A stretch of 32,415 bases of DNA. Source: a virus. The stretch is from IMG/VR virus record IMGVR_UViG_3300030329_004399, positions 1 through 32,415 of that record, one strand, 5' to 3'. A program made the translations under genes and the position numbers. How positions within the stretch are numbered: position 1 is the first letter of the stretch; every line of letters begins with the position of its first letter. Of the stretch, positions 1 to 22,702 are shown in pieces. The notes below the pieces were generated by a model. That model worked only from the letters and a program-made list of their open reading frames with translations. It was not told the origin of the DNA and did no database searches.

Positions 1-17
1 GTGTCCGTGCGGTAACT

Positions 18-50
18 TTTTAGCTATACAAATCTCTATAGGGGCTAAAA
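18..50. other. Hairpin near the left end
   Basis: TTTTAG (18-23) pairs with CTAAAA (45-50) and CTATA (24-28) pairs with TATAG (37-41), leaving a GGG bulge and an 8-nt loop. The stem is visible directly. It could be a terminator for transcription crossing the genome ends or part of the packaging site next to the terminase genes; nothing in the sequence decides between them. No gene was seen in 1-159. Confidence 0.45.
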
Positions 51-119
51 CAATCAACGAGAATCAATCTGAAGCCATTTTCAAAAAAATACCATGACCT
101 TATAAGGAAATGGACACAT

Positions 120-159
120 TGATTAAATAAGCGAAATATGGAAGATTATAAGGAAAAAA
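120..159 (+). promoter_or_regulatory. Putative late promoter of the terminase operon
   Basis: TGATTAAA (120-127), a 19-nt spacer, TATAAG (147-152), then 7 nt to the ATG at 160. The first box matches the TGATCTAT box seen before five other structural genes at 5 of 8 positions, with the same 19-nt spacing, so it is the weakest member of the set. Expected transcript start is near the ATG, giving an almost leaderless mRNA. Confidence 0.5.
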
Positions 160-549
160 ATGCCAACAATTAACGCAATTGTCGATTTTACGGGATTTGA
201 TCGCGGAGGGATTTCAAGACGGGTAAAAAGATTCGAGCTTGAGGCACCCATTTCATGCAAGGATATCTTTGATTTAAAACCTTTAGATCAGAAACAAAAA
301 GATAAATTATCACTCGAACAGGCAAGAACCGATCTTGCCGTGGAGGATACAAGATTAAAAAGATTACAGGCGGAAAAGATAGAGGGACAATTGGCAGATG
401 TCGATCAATTAATGGAGGCTGAGAATCAATTACTTGAGGGGATCTTACAAATCATTAAATCCTCAGACCTTGATCAAGAAAAGAAAGATGACATTTATAC
501 GCAGATTAGGGATCATGGGAAGAAATGGAAGGAGGGATTTAATAAGTGA
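160..549 (+). CDS. Putative terminase small subunit
   Basis: A 129-aa protein that would recognise phage DNA and load the large subunit for packaging. The N-terminus reads like a short DNA-binding region (NAIVDFTGFDRGGISRRVKR), followed by a charged helical stretch (about residues 40-125) similar in character to Nu1-type small terminases (HTH then coiled coil). Its stop overlaps the start of the large terminase by 4 nt, the usual order in lambda-like phages. Start chosen at the first ATG, 7 nt after the promoter TATAAG. Assignment rests on position, size and layout rather than a clear motif. Confidence 0.7.
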   Translation: MPTINAIVDFTGFDRGGISRRVKRFELEAPISCKDIFDLKPLDQKQKDKLSLEQARTDLAVEDTRLKRLQAEKIEGQLADVDQLMEAENQLLEGILQIIKSSDLDQEKKDDIYTQIRDHGKKWKEGFNK

Positions 550-2420
550 CCGGATTTAAAAAATACATTTCTGAAACATCAGATAATATTGAAAAGATCT
601 TTAATAATAATAAAATATTAACTGCCGCGGAATGGGCGGAAAATATCAGACGCATGGATGGGGGCAGGAATTACAGATTTTCTTTTGCCCCATATCAAAA
701 GGAAATGATGATGACCCCTTTTGATAAAAAAATACAAATGACGGTATTTCAATTAGCATCACGATTAGGGAAGACAGAGGTATGTATGAATATTATAGGT
801 CACTCGATTGCGGAAAATCCCAGACGTATATTGACTTTATATCCAACAACCTCACAAGCGGAAAAATGGAGCAAGGAAACTTTGGAAAAAGAACTTTTTG
901 AATCAACCCCGCAATTGCAATGGTTAGTAAGAGGAGGTAGAAGAGATTCAAGCAATACTATATTACACAAATTATTTCCCGGGGGATTGATTAATATTTT
1001 TGGGGGCAATGCTCCCGGGGAGATGAGAAGAGCAAAAGGGAATTTATTATTTGCTGATGAGGTTGACGCATTGATGTCTCAAGTAGGAGATGAAGGAGAT
1101 CAGTTGCAGATTTTTTGGATGAGGGGAAGCGAATACTCTGACGCCATTAGAATTGCGGCAAGTTATCCAAGCATTGAAGGACAAAGTCGTATTGCTCAAT
1201 TAATGGAACAAAGTGATTACCGGAAATGGTATACCCCATGCATCAAATGCAAAGAGCCATTTGTAATGCTAAGAGAACATATCAAATATCCTGAAGGTGA
1301 ACCAGATAAGGCGAGACTTGAATGTCCTCATTGCGGTGAACATCTAACTGATTCTAATAGGAAAAGAATGATGAAAAAAGGTTTCTGGAAAGCGACCAGA
1401 GATTTTACAGGCATCGCGGGATTTTGGGGCAATGGGATGATGAGTCCACATCCGGTTCAAAAAGGATTCAAGTCACATTTACATTGGGTTGCGGCGCAGG
1501 AGCAAGCTATAGAAATTAGTGATAATCCCGACCGAGCAAAACATGTATTCGTAAACACCTTTGATGCGGAATGCTACAGGCCTGAAAGAGTTGAAGCCCC
1601 TGAAGCTTCCGAATTAATGAAACGGCGAGAAAATTACAATCCTAGAATTGAATTGCCTGAAGGGGTATTGATAGTGACTGCAGGGGTTGATGTACAGAAA
1701 AGATATCTTGAATGTGCCGTGTGGGGGTGGGGGGAAAATAAAGAATCTTGGTTACTCGAGCATCATATTATTCCGGGCGCCCCAGATGATCCCGGGACTT
1801 GGCAACATTTGGAAGATTATCTAGCTGGATGTAGATTCCCTCACCCCTATGGGGTAGAATTAGGTTTATTCAGACCGGGGAGTAAGGTAATGGTTGATGC
1901 GGGTCATTGGGATCAACACGTATTGCCTTGGACATTTAAAAAACAGAAACTTGGTGTATTTGCTTCACAGGGAAGTCCTACAGTTAATGCCCCAGTATTA
2001 GGGAAGCCACGTCTTGCCTCTTCTCCTCGAGCAAGGATCTATCCACTGGGGGTGAACCAGTGCAAGGATATTATTTACACCAGATTATCTTTATCAAAAC
2101 CAGACACAAAAGAATATCCGCCGGGATATATACATTTAAATCAAGCGGCTACTACTGTGTTTCTGGATGGACTTACTTGCGAGTATGGAAAAGAAGAAAG
2201 ATTCAGAGGAGAACTCTACACTCGCTATGTGTGCCCAAGTGGCAAACGTAACGAACCCTTGGATACGTATGTGTATGCGATGTGTGCGAAAATATTAATC
2301 AATCCCCGATTTGAAAAGATAAAAGAAAATCTACAAAGCCAAAAAAAGGAGGAAACAAAAACAAGAGTTAAAAGAGCAATCAGGCCACGCAAAAATTTTG
2401 CCGGATCTTTTAGTAAATGA
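546..2420 (+). CDS. Terminase large subunit, GpA family
   Basis: A 624-aa packaging motor and DNA-cleaving enzyme of the lambda gpA (Phage_GPA) family. A Walker A-like loop SRLGKTE lies around residues 72-78 and a Walker B segment LLFADE around 167-172. A CxxC...CxxC cluster (C232, C235, C260, C263) fits a zinc-binding insertion. The C-terminal nuclease region starts with the TAGVDVQ strand (acidic D382) and contains MVDAGHWDQ. GpA-type terminases usually cut at cos sites. Start is GTG at 546, overlapping the upstream stop. It is followed with a 4-nt overlap by a small gene, so the head genes are translationally coupled. Confidence 0.95.
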   Translation: MTGFKKYISETSDNIEKIFNNNKILTAAEWAENIRRMDGGRNYRFSFAPYQKEMMMTPFDKKIQMTVFQLASRLGKTEVCMNIIGHSIAENPRRILTLYPTTSQAEKWSKETLEKELFESTPQLQWLVRGGRRDSSNTILHKLFPGGLINIFGGNAPGEMRRAKGNLLFADEVDALMSQVGDEGDQLQIFWMRGSEYSDAIRIAASYPSIEGQSRIAQLMEQSDYRKWYTPCIKCKEPFVMLREHIKYPEGEPDKARLECPHCGEHLTDSNRKRMMKKGFWKATRDFTGIAGFWGNGMMSPHPVQKGFKSHLHWVAAQEQAIEISDNPDRAKHVFVNTFDAECYRPERVEAPEASELMKRRENYNPRIELPEGVLIVTAGVDVQKRYLECAVWGWGENKESWLLEHHIIPGAPDDPGTWQHLEDYLAGCRFPHPYGVELGLFRPGSKVMVDAGHWDQHVLPWTFKKQKLGVFASQGSPTVNAPVLGKPRLASSPRARIYPLGVNQCKDIIYTRLSLSKPDTKEYPPGYIHLNQAATTVFLDGLTCEYGKEERFRGELYTRYVCPSGKRNEPLDTYVYAMCAKILINPRFEKIKENLQSQKKEETKTRVKRAIRPRKNFAGSFSK

Positions 2421-2797
2421 AAAATGAAGTTGATTGCTTTAAATTAGAAGATGAGCTAGAACCAATACAAAGGGTTCATTTTCATATTTTGATACAAGCA
2501 AGACAGGATTATCTAACTGCATTGAGTTTGGAATATGTGGATGAATTTGGTAATCTTAAAAAGGAAAATTTTAGATACAAAGGAAAAGGAACTAAATTGA
2601 TTGGAGGATTTTCAACGCCCATGACCATTTCATCGCTCTATGATCTTTGCAATTATTGGAAAAGCAATGCCCCGTCAATTAGTTTTGAAATACTGGGAAT
2701 TTATTATTTTGAAACGGGCGACATATTAAAAAAACTAAACAGCGCATTGAAATTCAGAAAATCAAAACCTTCAAAATTACCACTCGATGAATTATGA
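2417..2797 (+). CDS. Hypothetical protein between terminase and gpW-like gene
   Basis: A 126-aa protein I do not recognise. It is soluble, slightly acidic at the N-terminus and lysine-rich at the C-terminus, without signal peptide or membrane segment. The ATG overlaps the terminase stop by 4 nt and its own stop overlaps the next ATG by 4 nt, so it is a true member of the head operon. Location suggests an accessory packaging or regulatory role, but nothing in the sequence shows a function. Confidence 0.75.
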   Translation: MKNEVDCFKLEDELEPIQRVHFHILIQARQDYLTALSLEYVDEFGNLKKENFRYKGKGTKLIGGFSTPMTISSLYDLCNYWKSNAPSISFEILGIYYFETGDILKKLNSALKFRKSKPSKLPLDEL

Positions 2798-3075
2798 AAA
2801 AAGCCACGTTTGATATTGATGTTTGTCGAGTAATTAGAAAATGCCCAGAGGCTACCTCTTCAACCTTGGCCACTTATGCGGCATTAAGAGAAATTGCTAC
2901 TGAAAAAGGGAGTTGTGAATTTGAGTCATCTTTTAATGAGGTTAAAAATAAGGCGCTATTATCTGAATCAGGAGTTAAAAAACATATTGCATTAATGGAG
3001 AGGCGGAGACTATTACAGAAAAAGAATACATCTGAAGGCATTGAATTCCGATTGATCAAGGTTTTCAAGGCCTAG
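2794..3075 (+). CDS. Small winged-helix/HTH-like protein
   Basis: A 93-aa protein whose layout (TLATYAALREIA, then LSESGVKKHIALMERRRLLQ at about residues 63-82) resembles the helix-turn-helix plus wing region of phage and plasmid replication or regulatory proteins (HTH_36-like): helix, recognition helix and a basic beta wing. It overlaps the preceding gene by 4 nt and is followed by a TGATCTAT promoter rather than a coupled gene. A DNA-binding protein inside the head operon, just before a late promoter, could be a regulator of that promoter class; this is inference. Confidence 0.65.
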   Translation: MKKATFDIDVCRVIRKCPEATSSTLATYAALREIATEKGSCEFESSFNEVKNKALLSESGVKKHIALMERRRLLQKKNTSEGIEFRLIKVFKA

Positions 3076-3115
3076 TGATCTATAAAAATAATTAAAATGA
3101 GGTATTTTTTTTAAA
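3076..3115 (+). promoter_or_regulatory. Putative late promoter (TGATCTAT class) before the gpW-like gene
   Basis: TGATCTAT (3076-3083), exactly 19 nt, TATTTT (3103-3108), then 7 nt to the GTG at 3116. No Shine-Dalgarno sequence is present between promoter and start. Confidence 0.7.
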
Positions 3116-3658
3116 GTGGCCGATACTGCACCAAAAAGTAAATTATACTCCGGAGATTCGTCAAGCTGGACGAGTTCATTTTCTGACTATCCAGCAACGA
3201 CATATTCTGCAATCTGTATATTCCAAAAGCATGGGACTGATCCATTAACCTTGACATCAACGGCAAGCGGTAATGATTTTTCCTTTACATTTGAAAGTGA
3301 GAAATCTTCATTACTAGATCCCGGTGAATGGAATTGGGCGATAAGAGTAAAAAATGGAACGGAGATAGTAACCGCATCTACCGGGAAAATAAAAATCCTG
3401 CCGAATCCGGAAAGGGTATATCAACCCACATTTTATGAAAAATGTTTGAATTTAATACAGGCGGCAATTGAAGAAAGATTAACAGATGTGCAGGAATCAA
3501 TAACAATATTAGGGCAGGATATTACAAAAATACCTGCAGGCGAATTACATAGACTGCAACATTATTACCAAGCTCAAGTAAATAAGGAGCGCAAATTTAA
3601 TGAACAATTGATTACTGGCAAACGTACGCGTAGGTCGAGAATATACTTAAAGGACTAA
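3116..3658 (+). CDS. Head-tail joining protein, gpW-like domain with Ig-like N-terminus
   Basis: A 180-aa protein with two parts. Residues about 1-100 look like a beta-rich Ig-type domain (WTSSFSDYPATTYSAICIFQ, EWNWAIRVKNG). Residues about 110-160 (AAIEERLTDVQESITILGQD, then LHRLQHYYQAQVNKE) resemble the small helical gpW head-completion domain. The gene lies between the large terminase and the portal, exactly where lambda W lies between A and B, which supports the role. Starts at GTG, the only in-frame start after the promoter; its stop overlaps the portal ATG by one base. Confidence 0.65.
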   Translation: MADTAPKSKLYSGDSSSWTSSFSDYPATTYSAICIFQKHGTDPLTLTSTASGNDFSFTFESEKSSLLDPGEWNWAIRVKNGTEIVTASTGKIKILPNPERVYQPTFYEKCLNLIQAAIEERLTDVQESITILGQDITKIPAGELHRLQHYYQAQVNKERKFNEQLITGKRTRRSRIYLKD

Positions 3659-5379
3659 TGGCTGGTAAATTTATCTTTAATAAGAAAACAGGGAAATTAA
3701 AATTGAAGACCAATGCAAAAAGGTCTTACGGGGCGGTAATTTCTGATCAATTACAAGAGGGATGGACTGCCGCTTTAAGTAACGCCCACTCGGAATTCAG
3801 GGGTGGCATTGTCAGATTAAGAAATATGACAAGGGATCTGGAGCGATCCAATCCGTACGCAATTAGATTTCTGAACGAGTGGGTGACTAATATAGTCGGA
3901 ACTGGTTTTACTTTTCAATCTTTAGCAACTAATGCCCAAGGCAGAGAGGATGAAAATGCCCGCAATCAAATAGAAGAGGCGTGGCTAGATTGGAAGAAAG
4001 CAAGAAATTGCTGTGCATCTGGTGATATGCCTTACACCGAATTCAAAGGATTAAGTGAAAGAGCATGTGCAAGGGATGGAGGGGTATTGATTCAAAAGCT
4101 TAGAGGATTTGATAATAAGTACGGATTTGCTTTGAATGTATTAGAAATTGACAGACTGGATGTTGATTATAATGAGAAAAAGCTAAAAAATGGGAATCAG
4201 GTCATAATGGGGAAAGAGCTTGATCCTTACGGATGGAATAAACCAATTGCATATCATATACTTGGCGATCATCCCGGGGAAACCTATTCCAGAGCGGGGA
4301 GAACAAGAACAAGAATTCCTGCAGATCAAATCATACACAGATTTTATCGCAAGAGATTAGAATCAGCACATGGGGAACCTCTTATGGTCGGAGCGATTTC
4401 CGGACTGAGACATTTAGAAAAATTTGAAGAGGCGGAGCAAATAGCGGCAAGATTAAGTGCCTGTGCTACCGTTGCCATTGAAAGAGATAGTTCTACGCCT
4501 TACGAGGGAGAGGAATACTTAGATCAAGAATTGACCCCCGGGGGAAAATTTGAACTCGAGCCGGGAGAAAAAGCAACTTTACTAAATCCAACACATCCAA
4601 ATGCTAATTACGAAAGTTTTAGACGAGGAGTTTTACAAGGGGTAGCATCTGGATTGCTAACTAATTATCCTAATTTAGGTCAGGATTATGGAGGGGTTAG
4701 TTATTCTTCATTAAGGGAATCAAAATTAAATATCAAAGCTCTAACAAATGTTTATAGAGCATTAAATATTGAAAATGAGGAGGAGCATATTTTTAGGAGT
4801 TGGTTGGGATATGTATTACGGACAGGACAATTAAAATTACCCGCATCTAATTTTGAGAATTTAGCCAAGGGTAACTTTGTAGGGAAGGGGCATGAATGGG
4901 TAGACCCATTAAAGGATGTTAATGGATTAGAAAAGGAACTTTCAATTGGGGCCACTTCATTATCTAGGGCAGTAAAAGAAAGGTTAGGGGTTTCTTTAGA
5001 TGTAATAATTAAAGAAAGACAGCGAGATATTGAAGCATTTAAAAAGGCTGGGCTGGAAGTGCCGGCAATTTTAAAAGGTTCAGATTCAGATTCAGATTCA
5101 GATTCAGGTTCAGATTCAGAAGAAATTTCCTCATTACTAGGCGATTTAAAAGAGCAAGCCGATACTTATGGTGTAGGAGTAAGGGCGGGAATGGTAACCC
5201 CACAAACTATTGATGAACAGGATTTCAGAGAAAAGGCGGGACTCCCCGAAATGACAAAAGAAGCAAAAGAAGCTTGGAAAGAGGATGGAGGAATTAGGAG
5301 GCCAATAACTCTGCAATCGCAAAATGCCTTTGAATCCACACAGGATGAAATTGCTTCTGATCTATTAAATGAGGAATAA
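3658..5379 (+). CDS. Portal protein, lambda B family
   Basis: A 573-aa protein forming the dodecameric DNA gate at the capsid vertex. It shows the usual lambda-type portal course: basic N-terminus, NPYAIRFLNEWVTNIVGTGF (about residues 62-81), a VLEIDRLDVDYN segment, HRFYRKRLESAHGEPLMVGA, and GVASGLLTNYPNLGQDYGGV with SSLRESK. Length is typical. Near residues 475-495 there is an unusual serine-aspartate tract coded by a tandem hexanucleotide repeat, which ends the portal core and begins a charged C-terminal tail. The C-terminal codons carry the TGATCTAT box of the capsid promoter. Confidence 0.93.
   Translation: MAGKFIFNKKTGKLKLKTNAKRSYGAVISDQLQEGWTAALSNAHSEFRGGIVRLRNMTRDLERSNPYAIRFLNEWVTNIVGTGFTFQSLATNAQGREDENARNQIEEAWLDWKKARNCCASGDMPYTEFKGLSERACARDGGVLIQKLRGFDNKYGFALNVLEIDRLDVDYNEKKLKNGNQVIMGKELDPYGWNKPIAYHILGDHPGETYSRAGRTRTRIPADQIIHRFYRKRLESAHGEPLMVGAISGLRHLEKFEEAEQIAARLSACATVAIERDSSTPYEGEEYLDQELTPGGKFELEPGEKATLLNPTHPNANYESFRRGVLQGVASGLLTNYPNLGQDYGGVSYSSLRESKLNIKALTNVYRALNIENEEEHIFRSWLGYVLRTGQLKLPASNFENLAKGNFVGKGHEWVDPLKDVNGLEKELSIGATSLSRAVKERLGVSLDVIIKERQRDIEAFKKAGLEVPAILKGSDSDSDSDSGSDSEEISSLLGDLKEQADTYGVGVRAGMVTPQTIDEQDFREKAGLPEMTKEAKEAWKEDGGIRRPITLQSQNAFESTQDEIASDLLNEE
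5081..5119 (+). repeat. Tandem GATTCA hexanucleotide repeat in the portal gene
   Basis: About six copies of a 6-bp unit (GATTCA with one GGTTCA variant) encode alternating Ser-Asp. Simple repeats of this kind change copy number by slippage in steps of two residues without breaking frame. Confidence 0.85.
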
Positions 5380-5398
5380 TATATTATAAGTAATAAAT
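5358..5398 (+). promoter_or_regulatory. Putative late promoter (TGATCTAT class) of the capsid gene
   Basis: TGATCTAT (5358-5365) lies inside the last portal codons, followed by 19 nt, TATAAG (5385-5390) and 8 nt to the ATG at 5399. A dedicated promoter for the most abundant virion protein makes sense, and a GC hairpin terminator follows that gene. Confidence 0.7.
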
Positions 5399-7345
5399 AT
5401 GGAAACAGGATACCGTACATTCAAAGTAGATCGTTCTGATAATGGAGAAATACCCAGAGGAATTTTAACATCAGAACAACCCGTTGCTATGTGGGACTGG
5501 AAAAGGGGTGATTACATACCTGAGGTATTATTAATGTCGGGAATGAAGGCAAGAGGGCTGTCCATTAAATTACTCGACACACATAAAACAGATTCAGTAT
5601 CTTCAGTATTAGGATCATTCAGTGATTTAAAAATTAAATCAGCCGGGGAAAGAGAAGTTCCTTTTGATTTTGTCGAGGGAAAAATTGAAGTTTCATCTGT
5701 ACATCCTGAAGTTGAAACTAAATTACAGGAGGGGCATATAAATGAAATGTCAGTGGGATATAAATACACAGAAGATAAAACGATACATGTTCCTGAAGGG
5801 GAAAAATTAGAACATGATGGGAAGGAATACAGTGGCCCAATTAATTTAAGGACTGAATGGCATGCAGAAGAGGCTTCACTTGTGCCAATCGGGGCAGATT
5901 CACAAGCTCAGATTAGAGGGTATAAAGATTTTGAAGAAGCAAAAAAGATTTCACGCCAACCTAATAAAACCAAAAGCGAGCAAAGAGAGGTGACACTTTC
6001 TAATGCTGAAGCCAATGACAAGGTTAATCTGGAGGAAAAACGGGAAGGTGAGAAAACCCAAACTAAAACAACAAATTCAACAGAAAATAAATCCGATATG
6101 GAAGAAGAAAAAAAGGATGAGAATGTTGATGAACAAGTAGAGGTAGCCGTTAAAGCTACCAAGGAAGCATTTGACAAAAGGGCAGATGCAATCCTTGCTC
6201 TTGGTGAAGAAGTTGGAGACAGCAATTGGGCTCTCTCACAACTTCGTTCAGATAAGAGCGTTGAAGAAGTTCAAAGACAAGCCATCACAAAATTAAAAGA
6301 AGATTCTAAAAGTTTAGGATCTACACCTGAGCCACTTGGTCTCAGTAAGAAAGAAAGCAAATCTTACTCAATTGCCAATGCTATGAAAAGCTTGGTTAAT
6401 GGGGGAAGAGTTGAAGGACTGGAAAAAGAAGTTTCTGATGCTATTGCTAAACGCAGTGGAAGAGAAACACATGGATTTTTCCTCGCCTCTCAAAGAGATC
6501 TGAATATCACCGATGATGCCGCCCTTGTTCCAGAAGACACAAGAGGGGGAGACTTCGTTGATGCTCTTCGTCCTAATATGGTAACAATGCAAGCCGGTGT
6601 TCGTATTCTTAACGGACTAAAAGGCGATGTTGTTATTCCTAGAAAGACAGCAACTTCAGAAGCTACTTTTAAAGCTGAAACAACTATTCATACTGAAACA
6701 GAGCCAGTCTTTGATTCAATCAGTTTGACTCCAAGGCATCTTGGTACTTTCACCGATGTTAGTAAGCAACTATTAGCTCAAGGAACTCCAGATGTTGATG
6801 CTCTTATTAGAGACGATCTACAAAAGGCAGTTGCTGTTGGACTTGACAAGGCAGTTATTCAGGGCGCAGGTTCTGGATCAAATGCCCCACAAGGAATTAT
6901 TGGAGCAACAGGAGTTGAGGATATCGCAATTGGCGACAATGATGGGGGGGAGCCAACAACAGCTGAGTTGCATGCTTTCTTAAAACAGCTTGACGATAAT
7001 AATGCTTTAACAAGCAATTGTACATGGATAACAACCCCTCAAATCGCAGCGGCAGCGAAGCAAACTTTGCTAACTAGTGCTGTTTCTGGATACCAGTGGG
7101 ATATGTCCAATAATACAATGCTTGGCTATCCGGCATACAGCACTGCAAATATCCCTGCGGAAAGAACGATATTCGGAGATTTCTCTGAATATATTCTAGG
7201 AATATGGGATGGTGGTATTGAAATCACTTATGATCCATACAGTGGAGCAAAGAACAGATTGGTTACATTTATTCTAAATGTTATGTGTGACGGAAACGTT
7301 AGACAGCCTAAGTCATTTGCTGAATCTGATGATGGTTCCGCTTAA
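5399..7345 (+). CDS. Prohead protease-major capsid protein fusion (HK97 type)
   Basis: A single 648-aa chain. Residues about 1-175 are an S78-type prohead protease: LLDTHK with the catalytic His at 62, GHINEMSVGY with the Ser at 118, and TEWHAEEASLVPIGAD. Residues about 180-300 are a highly charged linker that would act as the delta/scaffold region. Residues about 305-648 are an HK97-fold capsid protein (LVPEDTRGGDFVDALRPNM, RKTATSEATFKAE, RDDLQKAVAVGLDKAVIQG, SNAPQGIIG, YDPYSGAKNRL). After assembly the protease would cut itself off the capsid domain. An internal ATG at about 6098 (SDMEEEKKDENVD) could give free capsid precursor. Own promoter upstream and strong hairpin downstream. Confidence 0.92.
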   Translation: METGYRTFKVDRSDNGEIPRGILTSEQPVAMWDWKRGDYIPEVLLMSGMKARGLSIKLLDTHKTDSVSSVLGSFSDLKIKSAGEREVPFDFVEGKIEVSSVHPEVETKLQEGHINEMSVGYKYTEDKTIHVPEGEKLEHDGKEYSGPINLRTEWHAEEASLVPIGADSQAQIRGYKDFEEAKKISRQPNKTKSEQREVTLSNAEANDKVNLEEKREGEKTQTKTTNSTENKSDMEEEKKDENVDEQVEVAVKATKEAFDKRADAILALGEEVGDSNWALSQLRSDKSVEEVQRQAITKLKEDSKSLGSTPEPLGLSKKESKSYSIANAMKSLVNGGRVEGLEKEVSDAIAKRSGRETHGFFLASQRDLNITDDAALVPEDTRGGDFVDALRPNMVTMQAGVRILNGLKGDVVIPRKTATSEATFKAETTIHTETEPVFDSISLTPRHLGTFTDVSKQLLAQGTPDVDALIRDDLQKAVAVGLDKAVIQGAGSGSNAPQGIIGATGVEDIAIGDNDGGEPTTAELHAFLKQLDDNNALTSNCTWITTPQIAAAAKQTLLTSAVSGYQWDMSNNTMLGYPAYSTANIPAERTIFGDFSEYILGIWDGGIEITYDPYSGAKNRLVTFILNVMCDGNVRQPKSFAESDDGSA

Positions 7346-7357
7346 TTAAATCTAATT

Positions 7358-7383
7358 GGAGGGGGGGTAACCCCCCCCTTTAA
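7358..7383 (+). terminator. GC-homopolymer hairpin after the capsid gene
   Basis: Seven G (7361-7367), a TAA loop and eight C (7371-7378), then TTT and AT-rich sequence. Flanking TAATT/AATTA can extend the stem. The U run is short, so this may be a partial terminator or mRNA 3' stabiliser that keeps capsid mRNA abundant. Confidence 0.7.
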
Positions 7384-7389
7384 TTAATT

Positions 7390-7635
7390 ATGCTTAGTTC
7401 TAATTCTTTCAAAAAAGAAAAAATGAAAAATACTATTAATATTAAAGCCTTGAAAAATGTTGCCTGTAATGGGCAAAGATTAAAAAAAGGGAAAATCTAT
7501 GAAGTCCCTGTTAAAGATGGCAATCTATTAATAAGTTTCAAAGATGCTGAAATTTGCGAATCCAAACCAAAAGCCAAAAAAACTGCCAAGAAAAAAACTG
7601 CCAAATCTGAGCCTGTAATTGATGCCCAGAGATGA
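7390..7635 (+). CDS. Small lysine-rich head-region protein
   Basis: An 81-aa protein. Residues about 15-55 (INIKALKNVACNGQRLKKGK, then a strand-turn pattern) resemble small beta-barrel-like phage proteins often coded right after the capsid gene; the C-terminus is a Lys/Ala tail (KPKAKKTAKKKTAK) like those of capsid-associated DNA-binding proteins. A second possible start, ATG at 7423, fits the folded part better and gives 70 aa. Its stop overlaps the next ATG by 4 nt. Exact function unknown; a head decoration or connector-associated role is inference from position. Confidence 0.65.
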   Translation: MLSSNSFKKEKMKNTINIKALKNVACNGQRLKKGKIYEVPVKDGNLLISFKDAEICESKPKAKKTAKKKTAKSEPVIDAQR

Positions 7636-7937
7636 CATTACAAGAGGCAGTAGAATCTCAATTTGAATTCGTCTTACGAAATGGGGCGGCAAATCTGAAT
7701 ATTTCAGGCAAATCATTAAAAGTTATTTTAATTGATCCTCCTGTGACTGAAGGAAGTCAAAGAAGAGGCAGACAAAAGAGCATTAAAAGAGCAATAGTCG
7801 GGGTACTCAAATCTGATTTGCCAAATATTCCTGTCCCGGGGACTATTGCCACTTTGAATAATTGGAGATGTATTGTGTCAGAGGAGGGTATCGAAGAGGA
7901 AACTTTTGCTTATCGCATCCCGTTACGTAGCCCATAA
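7632..7937 (+). CDS. Putative head-tail connector/stopper protein
   Basis: A 101-aa protein with beta-rich pattern (LKVILIDPP, KRAIVGVLKSDLPNIPVPGT, WRCIVSEEGIEEETFAYRIP). Size and place, between the capsid gene and the tail terminator-like gene, match head-tail stopper proteins, but no diagnostic motif is visible. ATG overlaps the preceding stop by 4 nt; the next gene's ATG is one base after its stop. Confidence 0.6.
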   Translation: MTLQEAVESQFEFVLRNGAANLNISGKSLKVILIDPPVTEGSQRRGRQKSIKRAIVGVLKSDLPNIPVPGTIATLNNWRCIVSEEGIEEETFAYRIPLRSP

Positions 7938-7938
7938 A

Positions 7939-8397
7939 ATGCCCGCAATTACATCACCATCAACTCTTGAGGCATTTTTAGAAAATAGAATAAAGGTTCT
8001 ATTGGAGGCTCAATTAACAAAAATACCAGATGCCAACATTCTGACAGGTCATACTATTGAAGATGATGGGCTAGATCAGGAAGCCCCAGTGGTAATAGTT
8101 ACTGCCACTAGGGAGGAGGAGGATATACCGGGAACAGGATGGTGGATTACTTCAATTGAAGTGGAACTTGATCCCCGTGATTTAGATGATAATTCAATCG
8201 AATCAATTTGTAATAAAATAGAAACTGCCATTGGAGATGGATCAAATGATATTGAAACCCAGTTATCAAATGGCAGGTTGAAATGCATGACCGGGAGCGT
8301 TTTTTATGACCAGAGCTTTGATTATGATCCCTCAGATAGTGAAAGATCCATGTTTTTTAAATTTTCAGGATCTTTTGGTCTTTTAGCCCCATCTTGA
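7939..8397 (+). CDS. Putative tail terminator or tail completion protein
   Basis: A 152-aa protein starting with an alpha helix (TLEAFLENRIKVLLEAQLTK) followed by beta strands (APVVIVTATREEE, WWITSIEVELDP) and a final FKFSGSFGLLAP strand. This helix-then-sheet order and length resemble phage tail terminator proteins, and the gene sits just before the tail tube gene. A longer reading from 7873 would overlap the previous gene by 65 nt; ATG 7939, one base after that stop, is the better start. Its last codons run into the next TGATCTAT promoter. Confidence 0.65.
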   Translation: MPAITSPSTLEAFLENRIKVLLEAQLTKIPDANILTGHTIEDDGLDQEAPVVIVTATREEEDIPGTGWWITSIEVELDPRDLDDNSIESICNKIETAIGDGSNDIETQLSNGRLKCMTGSVFYDQSFDYDPSDSERSMFFKFSGSFGLLAPS

Positions 8398-8432
8398 TCT
8401 ATTCAATAAAATACTTTTAATTATATTATATT
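8395..8432 (+). promoter_or_regulatory. Putative late promoter (TGATCTAT class) of the tail tube gene
   Basis: TGATCTAT (8395-8402), 19 nt, TATATT (8422-8427), 5 nt, ATG 8433. The TGA of this box is also the stop codon of the preceding gene. Confidence 0.72.
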
Positions 8433-8843
8433 ATGCCATCACCAACATATGTAGACGGAGCCACTGGAATGCTAAAAGGGGTTTATGCCGATGAAGGAGG
8501 AATTAAGGTTGAATCAGTAGAATGGTCAATTAATGACCCTAAAGAATACTCGTTTGATAGATATGGAGGTCACGACGGATTTGCGCATGGATTTAATCCA
8601 TCAGTGGAAATAACAATTTCAGGAGAAGTGAGTGATACAACAGGGGCGGTACCCGTTGCTCAATTTGGCACTGCCATTACTTTTAATAATGAAGAAAATG
8701 TTAAACTTGCAGATTCAGCAAGTACTTTTGCAAACGTTGCTAACACCGGCGGATTCTATCCAGAAGAAATTACTTTTAGTGAATCAAGAGACGGATTTAG
8801 AAGCATGACTATTAGAACCATTTCGCATCCAGAAATTACCTAA
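8433..8843 (+). CDS. Putative major tail tube protein
   Basis: A 136-aa beta-rich protein with paired strands (IKVESVEWSINDPKEYSFDR, NPSVEITISGEV, AITFNNEENVKLAD, EEITFSESRDGFRSMTIRTI) typical of small siphovirus tail tube subunits. It has its own late promoter, as expected for a high-copy virion protein, and lies between the terminator-like gene and the tail chaperone genes. Identification is by pattern and position. Confidence 0.65.
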   Translation: MPSPTYVDGATGMLKGVYADEGGIKVESVEWSINDPKEYSFDRYGGHDGFAHGFNPSVEITISGEVSDTTGAVPVAQFGTAITFNNEENVKLADSASTFANVANTGGFYPEEITFSESRDGFRSMTIRTISHPEIT

Positions 8844-8873
8844 TTTAATATTTTTGCCTACGGGCCAGTTTGA

Positions 8874-9386
8874 GTGAATAAATCAGAGCATTTAACGGCT
8901 CTAAAAGCCGGACAATTCATAACATCATCCACTGATCTTGCCGCCTCATTGATGGCAAATGGTTGTAAGCCTTTGAAGTCAGGCCCATGTACTAATACCT
9001 ATAGTGAAGAAAAACCATTCAGGTCGGGAGTTCCCGGGGAGGTATTATTTCATTTAGAAAAAAATAGTTCTACTTTTAAAAAACAGGACGGAACTCATTA
9101 TGCAAGTGAAGAGCTTGCAAAAGGGTTTACTGATAAAGGGGCCAATGAAAAGCTCGATGAATTGATTGATAAAATTGAGGATTCAAATCTACGCAATCAG
9201 ATAAAAGCACAATTGCCATTAGCTATCATGTCGCATCATCGGGCGGCAATGGGCAATAGATCAATAATACGCAAATGGTGGAGGAGTGTAACCCCTTGGG
9301 TCTACATGAAAGATGGAAATAAAACTTTCTTATTACCAAGAACAGCAAAAAAAACAGCAAAAAAATGGGGATTAATAAATGACTGA
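8874..9386 (+). CDS. Hypothetical tail-region protein
   Basis: A 170-aa protein that I do not recognise. It starts at GTG 8874 and ends 8 nt inside the next gene. It is basic, with a Trp-rich segment (IIRKWWRSVTPWVYMKDGNK) near residues 131-150 and a TAKKTAKKWG tail. It lies between the tail tube gene and the G/GT chaperone pair, so a structural or tail assembly role is possible. Confidence 0.65.
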   Translation: MNKSEHLTALKAGQFITSSTDLAASLMANGCKPLKSGPCTNTYSEEKPFRSGVPGEVLFHLEKNSSTFKKQDGTHYASEELAKGFTDKGANEKLDELIDKIEDSNLRNQIKAQLPLAIMSHHRAAMGNRSIIRKWWRSVTPWVYMKDGNKTFLLPRTAKKTAKKWGLIND

Positions 9387-9786
9387 TTATACTGAACTTG
9401 CAGAAGATGCCTTTGAAGATTCGGCACAATATGAATTTGATGGGATTCCTTTATACTTTTCGTATCGACATTATTATGCGCTTTTAGCAATAATGAAAGA
9501 AGCGGAAATGTCCGCAGAGGAACAGGTATTACTAATTTTCTGGGTAGCCACTCATTCCGGTGATAAAGTTAAAGAATTAAGAAAAAAGTGGAGAAATGAC
9601 AAAGATCTAGTTTTTGAAGAATTCGAGAATGCTCCGGAAAAATTTAATTTATCACCCGGATCACCTAAGATGATAGATATAGCATCCATAGCTCATAAAA
9701 TGTGGGAAGATGTGGAAAAAAGTAAAGATGAGGTTGTAGAAAATAAAAAAGAAATAAAGGGAGAGCAAGCATTGCCAAAAAAGTAG
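9379..9786 (+). CDS. Tail assembly chaperone, G-like (zero-frame product)
   Basis: A 135-aa acidic helical protein with the size and place of lambda gpG: after the tail tube and before the tape measure. It ends ...QALPKK-stop, with the slippery heptamer A AAA AAG directly before the TAG. It would coat the tape measure with its longer frameshifted partner during tail assembly. ATG overlaps the preceding gene by 8 nt. Confidence 0.85.
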   Translation: MTDYTELAEDAFEDSAQYEFDGIPLYFSYRHYYALLAIMKEAEMSAEEQVLLIFWVATHSGDKVKELRKKWRNDKDLVFEEFENAPEKFNLSPGSPKMIDIASIAHKMWEDVEKSKDEVVENKKEIKGEQALPKK

Positions 9787-9980
9787 GGCATGCCGCGTAT
9801 TATTTGGCATCCATCAGTCAAATATTGCCCGGCAGAAGCGTTGATTATTATTTAGGAGAATTGCCATATTGCCAAGGATTACAATTACAAGCAATTGAGT
9901 TGGCTAAAAATGGCATTGATTTTGACACCCCTACTAATGAAAAGAGGAAAAATTTCAAAGAAGTGGCAGGATTTTTTTGA
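9379..9980 (+). CDS. Tail assembly chaperone, GT-like -1 frameshift product
   Basis: A -1 shift at 9777-9783 joins the 135-aa G-like part to a 65-residue extension (starting VGHAAYYLASISQILPGRSV) that ends at TGA 9978-9980, about 200 aa in all. The extension has no start codon of its own at the right place and reads as real protein: hydrophobic helix, LPYCQGLQLQAIELAKNG. Its T-domain would bind the tail tube protein. The TGA stop is also the first three bases of the next TGATCTAT promoter box. Confidence 0.88.
9777..9783 (+). other. -1 ribosomal frameshift slippery site A AAA AAG
   Basis: Zero frame reads CCA AAA AAG TAG, so the heptamer A AAA AAG sits immediately upstream of the stop. It is the same slippery heptamer as E. 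coli dnaX. A purine-rich AAAGGGAGAG some 10-15 nt upstream could act as an internal Shine-Dalgarno stimulator. Translation in the -1 frame stays open for 65 codons. Confidence 0.9.
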
Positions 9981-10015
9981 TCTATATAAAAAAAAAATAA
10001 ACTTTATATTCAATA
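9978..10015 (+). promoter_or_regulatory. Putative late promoter (TGATCTAT class) before the tail completion-like gene
   Basis: TGATCTAT (9978-9985), 19 nt that are nearly all A/T, TATATT (10005-10010), 5 nt, ATG 10016. No Shine-Dalgarno sequence. Confidence 0.72.
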
Positions 10016-10609
10016 ATGGTTAAAGTAATGGCGAGAACCAATGCAAAACAATGGCAATCTGCCATGAAAGCTTGGACTAAAGCGACCGGAAAAAGTCGTG
10101 ATGATTGCATTAATAAATTCGGAGCCGAATCTTGTGTCAAAGCAATTAGACACACCCCTAAAGCAAGGGTAGGCAGAATTAATACTTATGATCCAGAAAA
10201 AGGGGGAAGAACAAAAAAGCAAAAATTACTTTTTGCATTAGCCTCTAATCAAGGAATCAGAAAGGGATCAGGGGGCGAACAAATTATGTATCCTTATGTA
10301 AGAAAAGAATTTAATAAGCGAAAAAAATCCATTGGTGCTTTAAAAGCCGGATTCATTAGACCGGCAATCCAATTGGGGGCAAGATTAAAGACAACTCCAT
10401 TTGGTGGAGGGAGCGCATCAAAATCAAAAGGAATAAAATCAAAATCTTTTAAAATGAAAGCCTTTGCTTTTAATGAAGTGGAAGGATCAGGTCTTGTGGC
10501 TTATAAGGCTATGGATAGAGCCATGATTGAAGCCGCCGCACAGGAAAAGGCATGGGCAGTAAGAAGATTACAAAAACAGAATAATAAATTTAGCGCAAAA
10601 CCATTTTAA
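10016..10609 (+). CDS. Hypothetical basic tail protein
   Basis: A 197-aa strongly basic protein (many Lys/Arg; SASKSKGIKSKSFKMKAFAF near residues 128-147) located between the tail chaperones and the tape measure. Size and residues such as CVKAIRHTPKARVGR suggest a tail completion or minor tail protein, perhaps of the HK97 gp10-like kind, but the match is weak. A second in-frame ATG lies at 10028; ATG 10016 keeps the 5-nt distance to the promoter box seen elsewhere. Ends 2 nt before the tape measure ATG. Confidence 0.6.
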   Translation: MVKVMARTNAKQWQSAMKAWTKATGKSRDDCINKFGAESCVKAIRHTPKARVGRINTYDPEKGGRTKKQKLLFALASNQGIRKGSGGEQIMYPYVRKEFNKRKKSIGALKAGFIRPAIQLGARLKTTPFGGGSASKSKGIKSKSFKMKAFAFNEVEGSGLVAYKAMDRAMIEAAAQEKAWAVRRLQKQNNKFSAKPF

Positions 10610-10611
10610 TT

Positions 10612-11688
10612 ATGGCAGTTCGTAAAAGTAGATTAGAAACCCAATTTACAGGGGATGATAAACAATTTCAAAGGGTAGCGGCTCGAGTAAAAGCCGCAGG
10701 GGCAAAAATGACGGCAATGGCGGGGTCAATGAAAGGGGCTTTTGGCGCAGTGGGGGGGACGATGTTAATTAAGGGGACATTAGAAAAATTTGATCGCATA
10801 GGGAAACTTTCAACCAGATTTGGTATAGCTTCTGAATCATTGCAAAGATTAGGACATGTGGCTAATTTAGGGGGGGCTGATTTAGAAACGGTTGCAAAAG
10901 GGTTAAGGACTCTAAATAAAAACGCCCACGAGGCGGCGGTGAATGGCTTAGAAACATACAATAGGGAATTCGAGATTTTAGGAATTGATGCCAAGGAATT
11001 CTTTATGTTAAACCATGAACAAAGATGGTTGGCAATGGGTGACGCTATAAGAGGGGCAACAAATAGGAATGTTGCAATGGCGGCATCACAAAAATTAATG
11101 GGCAGAGCCGGGGCGGAATTATTTGACATAATGGAGCAAGGTAGAGAAGAGCAAGAGGAGCAAATGAAATCAGTCCGCACTATTACTCAAGAGCAAACAA
11201 GACAAATTGAAGACCTCAACGATCATTTCTCTACTTTAACCACTGGAGCTTTGGCAGAATTTGCAGGGATGCTTGTTACAATCTGGGGATGGGTTAAAAA
11301 ATTAGGGGAAGCATTGGCATGGATGGGGATGCATTTACAAGCCGCCTTTGATCCAGATCTGGATTCTAGTGATGTAGAAAGATTTTTTGATGAATATCAA
11401 AAGGAACAGGAGGAGTTAGAAAAGAAAAGAAAGCAAAGAGATGAAGAAAGATTCAATCGTGAAGAGGGAGGACTAGAGGGTGTAGAAAGGAAAGCAAAAC
11501 AAGCCGCGAAAAAAATAGTAACCTCATTTTCTGGGGCATCAATGGGCGGATTTTTTGGGAATGCTGGAAGAAGTAGGGTATCCGCACGCGCTCCTAAATC
11601 ACTAGAACAAAAGCGATTTGAGTTAGAAAAAAGCCGTACTGAACAAATTAAATTTATGGCACAACAAATCAAAAGAGCTACGACGTAA
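10612..11688 (+). CDS. Tape measure protein, short
   Basis: A 358-aa protein with the composition of a tail tape measure: Ala/Gly-rich N-terminal helices (VKAAGAKMTAMAGSMKGAFG), LSTRFGIASESLQRLGHVA (about residues 71-89) and KGLRTLNKNAHEAA, a hydrophobic stretch (ALAEFAGMLVTIWGWVKKLG, about residues 214-233), then a long charged coiled coil (QKEQEELEKKRKQRDEERFN). At roughly 1.5 angstrom per residue this would set a tail of about 50 nm, so the virion would have a short siphovirus-type tail. Overlaps the next ATG by one base. Confidence 0.82.
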   Translation: MAVRKSRLETQFTGDDKQFQRVAARVKAAGAKMTAMAGSMKGAFGAVGGTMLIKGTLEKFDRIGKLSTRFGIASESLQRLGHVANLGGADLETVAKGLRTLNKNAHEAAVNGLETYNREFEILGIDAKEFFMLNHEQRWLAMGDAIRGATNRNVAMAASQKLMGRAGAELFDIMEQGREEQEEQMKSVRTITQEQTRQIEDLNDHFSTLTTGALAEFAGMLVTIWGWVKKLGEALAWMGMHLQAAFDPDLDSSDVERFFDEYQKEQEELEKKRKQRDEERFNREEGGLEGVERKAKQAAKKIVTSFSGASMGGFFGNAGRSRVSARAPKSLEQKRFELEKSRTEQIKFMAQQIKRATT

Positions 11689-12371
11689 TGCCGAAACCAG
11701 AATACAAAGGTAATAGTTCATGGAAGCAACAAAGGGGCACCTCATTTGGAACGGATGAAGAGGGGAAAGACTGGATTGAACTCACTTTCAGAGGCAAAAG
11801 TGATTTAGCTTTATCTTTTAGAGAGCAATACCCAAAGGGGACAGATTGTCCGGAGCCGGGATTTTCACATTGTAAGCTTCTCAGTCCTCCAGACATTGAA
11901 GAGGAAAGTATAGCTTTTTCGTATGCTATATTAAGATTTGAAGGGCCTAGCCCATTAAGCGGAACCTTTGAAGGGACTGATGCTACAATTGAACATTCTA
12001 CTCAAGAGGCGGATTTAATTTTTTCTACAAATATTAATAAAGAATTACTTACCGTAACATATAGATATCATAGAGTAATAGTTACCGCTTCCTATATTAA
12101 ATCCACTCGCCCAACCAGTACCAGATACAATTCCGAATTAGATAAACATGCAGAAGGTAATGGCATTTTGGAACCAATTGCCGATGTTAAAATACCATTA
12201 GGAGCACACCATTTTGAATTTATTAAAAATAACAAAGATAAATATTATGAAGTGGATCAGTGGAGTGTGGTGTCTAACTGGACAGAAACTGCCTCTGGCA
12301 TATATGAGGTAAAAGAAGAACATTCAAAATTTTTAACTCCTAAAGATGCCGACGTTCGGATAAATCAGTAA
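11688..12371 (+). CDS. Hypothetical tail tip-region protein
   Basis: A 227-aa protein, mostly predicted beta strands, with aromatic-rich C-terminal part (YEVDQWSVVSNWTETASGIY). Position directly after the tape measure suggests a distal tail or baseplate-like protein. No family recognised. The next gene starts at the base after its stop. Confidence 0.65.
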   Translation: MPKPEYKGNSSWKQQRGTSFGTDEEGKDWIELTFRGKSDLALSFREQYPKGTDCPEPGFSHCKLLSPPDIEEESIAFSYAILRFEGPSPLSGTFEGTDATIEHSTQEADLIFSTNINKELLTVTYRYHRVIVTASYIKSTRPTSTRYNSELDKHAEGNGILEPIADVKIPLGAHHFEFIKNNKDKYYEVDQWSVVSNWTETASGIYEVKEEHSKFLTPKDADVRINQ

Positions 12372-13238
12372 ATGCATAGACCTCCGGCAAAACTTAAAAA
12401 GGGATGGCGATTACATAGGGATGCTTATAATGATCTATTAGAGTATGTAATTAAAACGAGGCCAATTCCTACACATGGGCATCAGGAAACGAGCAATGGC
12501 ACGATGCCTCCGGTTTTATCTAAACAGAAACCACATCAATTTGAACCAATAATATTACAAGGTTCTTCCCCTATTCTTTTAATACATCCGGGTTATGTAT
12601 TTGCTTCATATAGGGATACAGATCAAGCTTCCACGACAGCCCATTTACCACAAATTCAACAATGGCCTTTTGAACCAACTTATAATTCTGAAAGTGGCGA
12701 TAAATTAAGTGATGAATCTGAATTGCCGGATTCAATTGCTCTTACTAAAAATTCAGTAAATTATATTTATCTGGAATTAAACTGGACAGAACATAAATAT
12801 GATGTTGGGGGATGGGATTATGATACGGGGGTATATGCATTTAAAGCTGAATATAATTTAAAAGATTATCCCAATGGTCATGTAATAGTAGGGGGCGATG
12901 CCTCCGCTCCTCCGCCTTCCGGGGTTTCGGTTAGAATGGATAAAATATTTTACACTCTAAATACCGCTATTTTCAAACAGACTACAACTCAACAGCCTAT
13001 AATTGAGACAGCCACAAAGACCCATATTCAAGCCGGAGTTATTACATTAAATGATGAGGGTAAACTTGCTGATCAATCTACCCCGCAGGCTGATAATTTA
13101 AGATGGTTTTTACAGGGGCCAATATTTGCCAATCGTCCTCCTGTTTATATTTCCGGTCTATCTTCACCAAATAGGGATGAGCCTATTGCCCCTATAGTTT
13201 CAGATGATTACACTTATCCCGGCGCAGAAAGGGTTTAG
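12372..13238 (+). CDS. Hypothetical tail tip-region protein
   Basis: A 288-aa protein starting MHRPPAKLKKGWRLHRDAYN, with a pattern of short strands and loops, YIYLELNWTEHKYDVGGWDY, and a Pro-rich loop. It resembles in style the adaptor proteins between tail tip and fibres. No motif known to me. Immediately adjacent to the upstream gene; followed by a gap that holds a TGATCTAT promoter. Confidence 0.65.
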   Translation: MHRPPAKLKKGWRLHRDAYNDLLEYVIKTRPIPTHGHQETSNGTMPPVLSKQKPHQFEPIILQGSSPILLIHPGYVFASYRDTDQASTTAHLPQIQQWPFEPTYNSESGDKLSDESELPDSIALTKNSVNYIYLELNWTEHKYDVGGWDYDTGVYAFKAEYNLKDYPNGHVIVGGDASAPPPSGVSVRMDKIFYTLNTAIFKQTTTQQPIIETATKTHIQAGVITLNDEGKLADQSTPQADNLRWFLQGPIFANRPPVYISGLSSPNRDEPIAPIVSDDYTYPGAERV

Positions 13239-13245
13239 ATTATTC

Positions 13246-13283
13246 TGATCTATTATCTTATCTAAAAAAGGGTATTTTAATAG
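13246..13283 (+). promoter_or_regulatory. Putative late promoter (TGATCTAT class) of the tail fibre genes
   Basis: TGATCTAT (13246-13253), 19 nt, TATTTT (13273-13278), 5 nt, ATG 13284. It starts 7 nt after the stop of the upstream gene and would drive the two fibre-region genes. Confidence 0.72.
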
Positions 13284-14333
13284 ATGGCAGTCCATACGGT
13301 AAAATTTACAGGTGATAGCTCTTTCAGTGGAACGCATACATCTGGATCAAAAATATATGTGCGCTCTGATAATGCCGCAGATGATGATAATTTAGTTTTA
13401 TACGGCAGGAAATCCAGCGATTCAACCGCTCACTATCAGCAATTGGTAGTTAATACTAATGAGGGTAAAATTGAGCAATTAGGCGGGACTGCATGGAGTC
13501 ATTTATATTTGGCAAAATGGGACACTACTTTACTGGGGACGGCTTCGGTATTCTCCAATGATGGTACCGCCGCCACGGGAAAAGCGACCATTATTACGAA
13601 TCCTTCAAACGGTGAAACTATTGAAATAGGGCTAACAGGATTCACTACGGTCTTTACATTTAAAACTACAGTCTCTGGTAATGGGGATGTAAAAATAGGT
13701 TCAAGTACGGCGGCAACCGCAGATAATCTTGCCTCTGCAATAAATGATTCTCAAACAGGGACTAGCAATCCTACTGATGGAACGGATTGGAATTCAACCG
13801 GGGCGCATGCTTATTTAACAGCTACATCCTCATCTTCAAGTGTAACTTTAACGGATCGAATTAATTGCGCTAGGCAATTAGCTTGGGTTCTTGATCCTTA
13901 CGATGATGGTGATTTTCATATATGCAATATAAGAGGGGGAATTGATGGAACAAAAATAATTGATCTAGCGGCAGGGAATAAATCAGCAAGCACTACAACT
14001 GCGAGTGGAGTTGATTTAGATAGTGAAGATTTATCTACCACAAATGTCAGCGGCTTACTATCCGGTGCCTCTGATTCCGTAGCTACTAGAGGTAGATTTG
14101 TGGTAGATATTTATTGTCAAGATCCAACCGCAACAGTTACCCCCGTCATTCAATTAAGTAATGATAATATAAATTGGAGGAATGCGACTACCACTATTAC
14201 TGATTTAAATACGGATCAAGAACAAAGAATAACTGGGGATGATTTAATGTCTGAATATGTCAGAATCAATTTTACCACATGGAGTGCGACCGCCGCAAAG
14301 GCTTTAAATATTAAAATTATTACACAGAGTTAA
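13284..14333 (+). CDS. Putative tail/fibre-associated structural protein
   Basis: A 349-aa Ser/Thr/Asp-rich beta protein. Segments such as NPSNGETIEIGLTGFTTVFTF, VKIGSSTAATADNLASAIND and VTLTDR resemble repeated modules of phage structural proteins in which fixed numbers of residues per data point form beta layers; the last third (FVVDIYCQDPTATVTPVIQL, NWRNATTTITDL) looks like a jelly-roll type domain. It overlaps the large fibre gene by one base, so the two are likely made together as parts of the adhesion apparatus. Confidence 0.6.
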   Translation: MAVHTVKFTGDSSFSGTHTSGSKIYVRSDNAADDDNLVLYGRKSSDSTAHYQQLVVNTNEGKIEQLGGTAWSHLYLAKWDTTLLGTASVFSNDGTAATGKATIITNPSNGETIEIGLTGFTTVFTFKTTVSGNGDVKIGSSTAATADNLASAINDSQTGTSNPTDGTDWNSTGAHAYLTATSSSSSVTLTDRINCARQLAWVLDPYDDGDFHICNIRGGIDGTKIIDLAAGNKSASTTTASGVDLDSEDLSTTNVSGLLSGASDSVATRGRFVVDIYCQDPTATVTPVIQLSNDNINWRNATTTITDLNTDQEQRITGDDLMSEYVRINFTTWSATAAKALNIKIITQS

Positions 14334-21744: not shown

Positions 21745-21822
21745 CTACCTTTTCGGTGAACTAACTGCGAAAAATCGCAGAATAAGGATTATAAATAAAA
21801 ACCAAAGGATTAAAAAGATCAT
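21745..21822 (-). CDS. Possible 25-aa membrane peptide
   Basis: ATG 21822-21820 overlaps the stop of the 21819 gene as ATGA. It codes MIFLILWFLFIILILRFFAV followed by SSPKR, an almost ideal single membrane segment. ATGA overlap is the normal coupling in this operon, which supports translation. A perfect 6-bp hairpin (CTGCGA/TCGCAG, 21768-21783) lies inside it. Confidence 0.45.
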   Translation of the reverse strand: MIFLILWFLFIILILRFFAVSSPKR

Positions 21823-22076
21823 TTTGTTTTGATTATTGGATTCCCTTTATCAATAAATACCCATGCCATTTTACTATCAGCAATAATCCCTCCGATTAGT
21901 TCCCCCTCCCAGTCCAATACTTTAAGTAATGAAAGAGAGGCAGAGGCATGATTTTTTTCACCACTCAATCGGTGATCGTATGGGTATGTCTTTTTAAATC
22001 CGCCGGAGGTCTTTGCTATAATTCTTGATCCTCTATGATCAGTAGGCCCAAGGAATGATGTTATAATTGATTGCAT
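21819..22076 (-). CDS. Hypothetical early protein
   Basis: An 85-aa protein (MQSIITSFLGPTDHRGSRII start) with AKTSGGFKKTYPYDHRLSGE and SLLKVLDWEGELIGGIIADS. It reminds of small phage proteins that begin with a translation-like SFLGPTxxRGSRI segment. I recall this type as a common small phage protein of unknown role. Preceded by T-arm-like element B and a run of A before the ATG. Confidence 0.7.
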   Translation of the reverse strand: MQSIITSFLGPTDHRGSRIIAKTSGGFKKTYPYDHRLSGEKNHASASLSLLKVLDWEGELIGGIIADSKMAWVFIDKGNPIIKTK

Positions 22077-22091
22077 TTTTTTAGTAGATTA

Positions 22092-22116
22092 TGCCGGGGA
22101 TCGAACCCAGCGGGTT
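22092..22116 (-). ncRNA. T-arm-like hairpin element, copy B
   Basis: On the - strand AACCCGCTGGG, loop TTCGATC, CCCGGCA: a 6-bp stem closing the 7-nt loop UUCGAUC, which fits the tRNA T-loop consensus (UUCRANN). 21 of 25 bases match copy A, with one compensatory pair change. It starts just after the TAA of the gene at 22119 and lies about 16 nt before ATG 22076. No acceptor or other tRNA arms are present. Confidence 0.7.
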
Positions 22117-22118
22117 GA

Positions 22119-22358: not shown

Positions 22359-22379
22359 TTTTTTTGTAGGTTTAATTTT

Positions 22380-22438
22380 TGATCTATCTCGTCAGTGCCA
22401 GTAGATCAACTCTGACAGACCCCGAAGGGTTTCGATTA
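22380..22438 (-). ncRNA. Hammerhead ribozyme 1, type II
   Basis: On the - strand all core bases of the hammerhead are present in circular order: C then GAA (G12-A14), stem III A-CCC / loop UUCG / GGG-U, C17 at 22418, stem I UGUCAG / loop AGUUGAUCUA / CUGGCA, CUGACGA (C3-A9), then G of stem II. Stems I and III are closed by loops, so stem II is open (type II). Stem II is short: GAU/AUC, an A-A mismatch, then G-U. Predicted cut between 22418 and 22417. The stem I loop UGAUCUA can pair with UAGAUCA just downstream. The element begins at the stop codon of the 22436 gene. Confidence 0.88.
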
Positions 22439-22672: not shown

Positions 22673-22702
22673 TTTTTCGGTAGGTTATTTTTGTTTTAAT
22701 TC

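Follow-up and report, generated by a model that had tools for sequence, protein, structure and literature searches.

The 32,415-base stretch analysed here (IMG/VR record IMGVR_UViG_3300030329_004399, classed as a virus and hereafter called the window) carries on its plus strand a typical late region of a tailed phage (terminase, portal, head, tape measure and tail fibre genes) and on its minus strand the early region. Five plus-strand sites in the late region, at 3076, 5358, 8395, 9978 and 13246, share a bipartite element in which the box TGATCTAT is followed, after 19 nucleotides (nt), by TAT, and each element ends 5-8 nt upstream of the start of a structural gene. We examined whether these elements are promoters and which protein might read them.

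The first element (3076..3108, box 3076-3083, -10 hexamer TATTTT at 3103-3108) lies 7 nt upstream of the GTG at 3116 that opens the gene for the head-tail joining protein (3116..3658, PHROG 5774, E 5e-26), which together with the portal gene (3658-5379) makes up the first late unit. The second (5358..5390, box 5358-5365, TATAAG at 5385-5390) sits inside the end of the portal gene, 8 nt before the ATG at 5399 of the major head protein with its protease region (5399..7345, PHROG 617), the first gene of unit 2. Directly downstream of this gene, at 7353-7386, is a very stable terminator-like hairpin (-24.8 kcal/mol, z -3.5), which folds in the related contig G001 too and is visible in other relatives. 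At the remaining three sites 5 nt separate the -10 from the start codon: the third element (8395..8427, box 8395-8402, TATATT at 8422-8427) precedes the first gene of unit 3 (8433..8843), whose position fits a tail protein; the fourth (9978..10010, box 9978-9985, TATATT at 10005-10010) precedes a gene at 10016..10609 followed by the tape measure gene (10612-11688); and the fifth (13246..13278, box 13246-13253, TATTTT at 13273-13278) precedes a gene at 13284..14333 followed by the tail fibre gene (14333-17173). All of these genes lie on the plus strand.

This arrangement, first pointed out in the initial annotation, is borne out by counting. The window contains 10 copies of TGATCTAT, compared with an expectation of 1.6; the five outside the elements have no TAT at N19, and the full pattern, present five times, appeared in none of 300 simulated windows. 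When spacings from 10 to 30 were tried, 19 alone placed TA behind all five boxes. Two of the non-promoter copies, at 22380 and 22703, are explained as parts of a 54-nt repeat (22370-22423 and 22693-22746, 74% identical) that lies, with hairpins, in the leaders of two small minus-strand genes.

Large terminase, portal, head protein and a winged-helix protein served as queries in scans of IMG/VR. These yielded a single clade of about 30 contigs, with terminase identities of about 64-91% and with near-duplicates and fragments among them, plus many more distant contigs. Gene order is kept across the whole clade, and in nearly every clade contig the same five genes are preceded by the box with TAnnnT 19 or 20 nt behind it, the core CTAT of the box being almost invariant; the copy ahead of the fourth unit in G022 is doubtful. 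A weight matrix was built from 47 sites of relatives, excluding the window and its nearest kin. In G008, G024, G025 and G018 its ranks 1-5 are exactly the five expected sites, and in G008 the score drops from 18.1 to 8.6 between the expected sites and the next match. The window's own five sites take ranks 1-4 and 6, with the third promoter scoring highest; the site at 5358, ranked sixth, scores 13.6, barely above the mean best score of 13.2 in shuffled windows, and so rests mainly on its conservation. In contigs outside the training set (L113, L120, L127, L128 and L129) the predicted sites again lie ahead of the expected genes. Matches scoring at least 14 number 67 in 355 kilobases (kb) of clade sequence, 64 of them preceding a start codon, versus one in 836 kb of outgroups; the group with 46% identity in TerL and the other outgroups lack the box. 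An enrichment before the late genes of relatives, whose absence the initial annotation had named as a possible refutation, is thus present, and the comparative evidence makes it nearly certain that the elements form a phage-specific class of promoters common to the clade. Their timing is presumably late. When the literature was searched for a phage promoter containing TGATCTAT, the papers listed were all unrelated.

The initial annotation had also counted as a member a variant, TGATTAAA-N19-TATAAG, upstream of terS (120..152, plus strand). The letters are there, but the site is not conserved in relatives and falls outside the best 16 matrix sites; judged by these comparisons, the terminase operon is not part of the regulon.

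Across 87 sites, the distance between box and -10 is 19 nt in 67 and 20 nt in 15, and the -10 lies 5-10 nt from the start codon in 75, with a maximum of 31 nt. In the third unit of G005 and G018, 25 and 31 nt separate the -10 from the start, and the box spacing is unchanged. The box thus keeps its place relative to the -10, whereas the start codon can shift, which is the behaviour expected of a promoter. This bears on an alternative reading, in which the element is a signal for RNA processing or for translation ahead of uncoupled genes. Its position directly before the start codons of genes that lack translational coupling would suit such a signal, yet the fixed distance is the one to TAnnnT, and the boxes change in concert (see below), so that we consider this reading most improbable.

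Measured against a standard sigma70 promoter, the elements have the -10 TAnnnT (consensus TATTTT in relatives; all five window sites have TA at N19, although the one at 5358 reads TATAAG) and lack the -35: no TTGACA-like hexamer occurs 16-18 nt upstream of the -10, where the mean is 1.7-2.1 matches out of six and the commonest hexamers at -35 distance are CTATCG, TCTATC and TATCCA. An extended -10 TG is found in 8 of the 87 sites. The box itself is asymmetric and about 12 base pairs (bp) long, consisting of TGATCTAT and about four lineage-specific bases. Transcription usually starts 5-8 nt past the -10; with that start distance, the box falls at about -38 to -31, with the variable extension running on to about -27. 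We read the box as taking the place of the -35 element beside an ordinary, host-like -10. The -10 is so near the start codon that leaderless mRNAs are expected, and a Shine-Dalgarno-like motif was found in only 1 of 57 boxed genes in the stretch scanned, such motifs being sparse throughout the phage. It is quite likely, then, that the late mRNAs are essentially leaderless, with initiation at the start codon or no more than a few bases from it.

In the early region, TTGnnn-N16-TAnnnT, with the 16-nt spacing that the initial annotation had noted, precedes four minus-strand gene starts (21551, 22997, 31038 and 31984), and here too the -10 is merely 6-9 nt from the ATG, so that early transcripts may also be leaderless. 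The contrast between the 19-nt and 16-nt spacings had been taken to suggest a separate activator or sigma factor. The spacing itself is no evidence of this, because the box covers the -35 position and is not a -35 hexamer at another distance; what does support dependence on a separate factor is the missing -35 hexamer together with the concerted change of the box in each genome.

That change concerns the four bases that follow TGATCTAT (+1 to +4). They are 63% identical among different promoters of one genome versus 38% among orthologous promoters of different genomes (permutation p < 0.0005; 0.0005 without the AT-rich genomes). The rest of the spacer has no such effect, and the weak one in the upstream flank (p 0.02) loses significance once the AT-rich genomes are set aside. 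For example, the extended box reads TGACCTATTCCC at four of the five promoters of G025, TGACCTATCGCC in G009, G013, G019 and G021, and TGATCTATCC in the G008 group. Since the extension changes alike at all five promoters within a genome, the pattern points to one trans-acting protein that would read all five sites. This protein could in principle belong to the host, a regulator or alternative sigma factor through which cell state, in place of a phage protein, would govern the promoters. The almost invariant CTAT core is compatible with a host reader, and scans of bacterial genome contigs turned up no relative. However, concerted changes between phage lineages fit a fast-evolving phage protein, though different hosts could cause the same, and the early genes of the same phage use TTGnnn-N16-TAnnnT; we regard a host reader as improbable.

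Among phage proteins, the initial annotation had proposed three helix-turn-helix (HTH) products as candidates, one of which has the right distribution. It is a 93-amino-acid (aa) winged-helix protein (2794..3075, plus strand) whose gene ends against the first late promoter. The remaining two were rejected on distribution, since other box-bearing genomes lack them: within the clade, the 57-aa XRE-like protein is confined to the window and G005, and the 81-aa HTH protein to the window, G005 and G025. The winged-helix protein is exactly 93 aa long in all 23 contigs that have it, at identities down to 40%; in IMG/VR it was found in this clade only and is absent from the outgroup contigs, and it is the sole recognisable DNA-binding regulator common to all four longest genomes. 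Its AlphaFold model is a winged helix (predicted local distance difference test score, pLDDT, 84; helix-helix-strand-helix-helix-strand-strand) that matches the winged helices of CRP, Fur and TFE with Z of about 9-10 and also resembles the MarR type; weak MarR_2 matches were obtained for 10 of 19 family members (best E 4.8e-6). In G009, G013, G019 and G021 the gene keeps its place in inverted orientation and diverges from the first late gene across a gap of about 80 bp that contains the box, and the inverted gene has its own sigma70-like promoter (in G009 TTGAAA-N17-TATATT, read by eye), a layout typical of a regulator beside its presumptive site. From these comparisons we infer that the winged-helix protein is probably the activator of the late promoters.

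The same protein might instead act as a repressor on the box, late transcription starting when repression is relieved. MarR-like folds mostly belong to repressors, the box overlaps the -35 position, and the divergent arrangement in G009 and its kin would suit autoregulation. Yet promoters with neither a -35 hexamer nor an extended -10 should be weak unaided and in need of help, which leaves repression quite improbable beside activation.

Several observations weigh against late promoters activated by the winged-helix protein. The major head promoters of the G008 type have GAATTT, a poor -10. Although the model has a winged-helix fold, the window protein's Pfam MarR match, at 12.9 bits, is below the gathering cut-off of 27. 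Co-variation of protein and box is not separable from shared descent in these data. The winged-helix gene is missing at its usual locus in G002 and G016, which keep boxes and fall inside the window's subclade in the portal and head trees; both are fragments, of 6 and 11 kb, so the gene may lie elsewhere. Their boxes retain the TGA part in 1 of 6 sites, versus 15 of 15 in the nearest kin, while CTAT stays, and their neighbouring 126-aa gene has lost its tail, so that in this lineage either the winged-helix gene has moved or the system is being lost. Finally, the conserved 126-aa gene next to the winged-helix gene (2417..2797, plus strand) co-occurs with the boxes more fully, being present in all box-bearing contigs that cover the locus, G002 and G016 included.

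This last point feeds the main rival, in which the box is either the -35 of a phage-encoded or strongly diverged sigma-like factor, of the kind known from phage 7-11, or the site of another phage protein such as the 126-aa product, and the winged-helix protein has some other role. Fixed-spacing bipartite promoters read by a phage sigma factor do exist, as in phage 7-11 with GTAAtg-16-aCTA (PMC8948821), and phage sigma factors can be too diverged to recognise. Against this, the -10 is the normal TAnnnT of the early promoters, and neither a sigma factor nor an RNA polymerase gave a Pfam or PHROGs match among the window proteins scanned, a scan that covered part of the late genes and can miss diverged factors; the 126-aa protein had no fold match, and no match to a DNA-binding fold, in the structure comparison, and is the weaker candidate for a regulator or partner. 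We consider this rival unlikely, if the one most deserving of attention.

The explanation we favour, and hold to be probable as a whole, is that a phage-made activator, most likely the 93-aa winged-helix protein, binds the asymmetric box of about 12 bp that lies over the -35 position (about -38 to -27) of promoters that have a host-type -10 (TAnnnT) without a -35 hexamer, and brings host RNA polymerase to that -10. Expression of the activator would come from the left (terminase) operon, except in one lineage, where a sigma70-like promoter of its own would drive the gene. The activator would switch on the five structural modules together, with essentially leaderless transcripts whose 5' ends coincide with the start codon or lie a few bases from it. 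Whether a single-domain winged helix of 93 aa replaces the contact between sigma region 4 and the -35 without a second phage co-factor, directs leaderless late mRNAs and co-evolves with the box in each lineage is a more tentative matter, and we give this fuller version only limited credence. A literature search found no publication matching a winged-helix late activator. For a clade of uncultured phages represented here solely by metagenomic contigs, the analysis provides a complete proposed late-gene circuit, with five promoters, one box and one candidate activator. The lineage-specific boxes and matched winged-helix proteins form a natural set for studying how a small activator recognises DNA and may replace the -35 contact, and the matrix also marks the starts of late units in such contigs.

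Other features of the window and its relatives lie outside this circuit. Genes 9379-9786 and 9804-9980 likely encode a tail assembly chaperone pair joined by a -1 frameshift at 9773-9786, where CCAAAAAAG in the window and CGGGAAAG in most relatives stand just upstream of the stop and where, in 13 contigs, the -1 frame stays open over 64-71 codons; the TTG at 9804 is probably no genuine start. The minus strand carries a 7-deazaguanine DNA modification cassette at 23300-26288 (QueD, QueC, GTP cyclohydrolase, a QueE-like radical SAM protein and a TGT/DpdA-like transferase). A stem resembling a tRNA T-arm (GCTGGGTTCGATCCCCGGC, 22080-22125, minus strand) lies just upstream of gene 21819-22076 and is conserved upstream of the same gene in G005; a tRNA scan of the window and of longer relatives found no tRNA gene, at this stem or anywhere else. 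GTGTCCG occurs at both ends of the window (1-55 and 32405-32415), and a conserved TAGCTATAC...TATAGGGGCT motif marks the same starting point in several related contigs, which suggests fixed genome ends such as a cos site. One relative encodes a protein (L029 in G008, 28680-29798, minus strand) that, judging by its sequence, reads like a tyrosine integrase, so part of the clade may be temperate.

Among known systems, the closest parallels are the middle promoters of phage T4, which combine a MotA box with a host -10 and depend on sigma appropriation by AsiA and MotA (PMC2988021, PMC6755090), and the late promoters of phage Mu. In T4, as here, an asymmetric phage box stands in place of the -35, the host -10 is kept, and several promoters are switched together. 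However, in T4 the centre of the box wwwTGCTTtA is at -30, and 12 +/- 1 bp lie between this box and the -10 (PMC2988021), whereas the present box, TGATCTATCCAA, has its centre at about -33 and is separated from the -10 by 19 bp when measured from TGATCTAT or 15 bp when the extension is included; MotA has two domains and a double-wing DNA-binding part, whereas the present candidate is a single winged helix, and neither a MotA homologue nor an AsiA counterpart was matched in Pfam or PHROGs among the window proteins scanned. In Mu, protein C activates the four late promoters lys, I, P and mom (PMC4461284), compared with five here, and both systems have a non-consensus -35, one phage activator (here a proposed one) and host RNA polymerase; C acts as a dimer at a site upstream of or overlapping the -35, and its box and protein are unrelated to the present ones as far as seen. 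Phage 7-11 has eight bipartite late promoters, likewise at conserved positions upstream of late genes, with starts 6-9 bp from the element (PMC8948821), but there a phage sigma factor reads both elements, whereas here the -10 is host-like and no sigma factor was found among the proteins scanned. The middle and late promoters of Thermus phage P23-45, according to the account relayed in PMC7403470, also do without a -35, a phage protein acting on sigma region 4; as far as that account goes, they rely on an extended -10 and Gp39, whereas the present promoters have a sequence-specific box and no extended -10. The promoters described here would thus work like the T4 middle or Mu late promoters, the site of a phage activator doing the work of a regular -35 contact beside a host -10, and are members of neither type, since box sequence, spacing and protein differ. 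By this analogy the design resembles known phage late-gene switches, and what is new is the DNA sequence of the box and the candidate protein.

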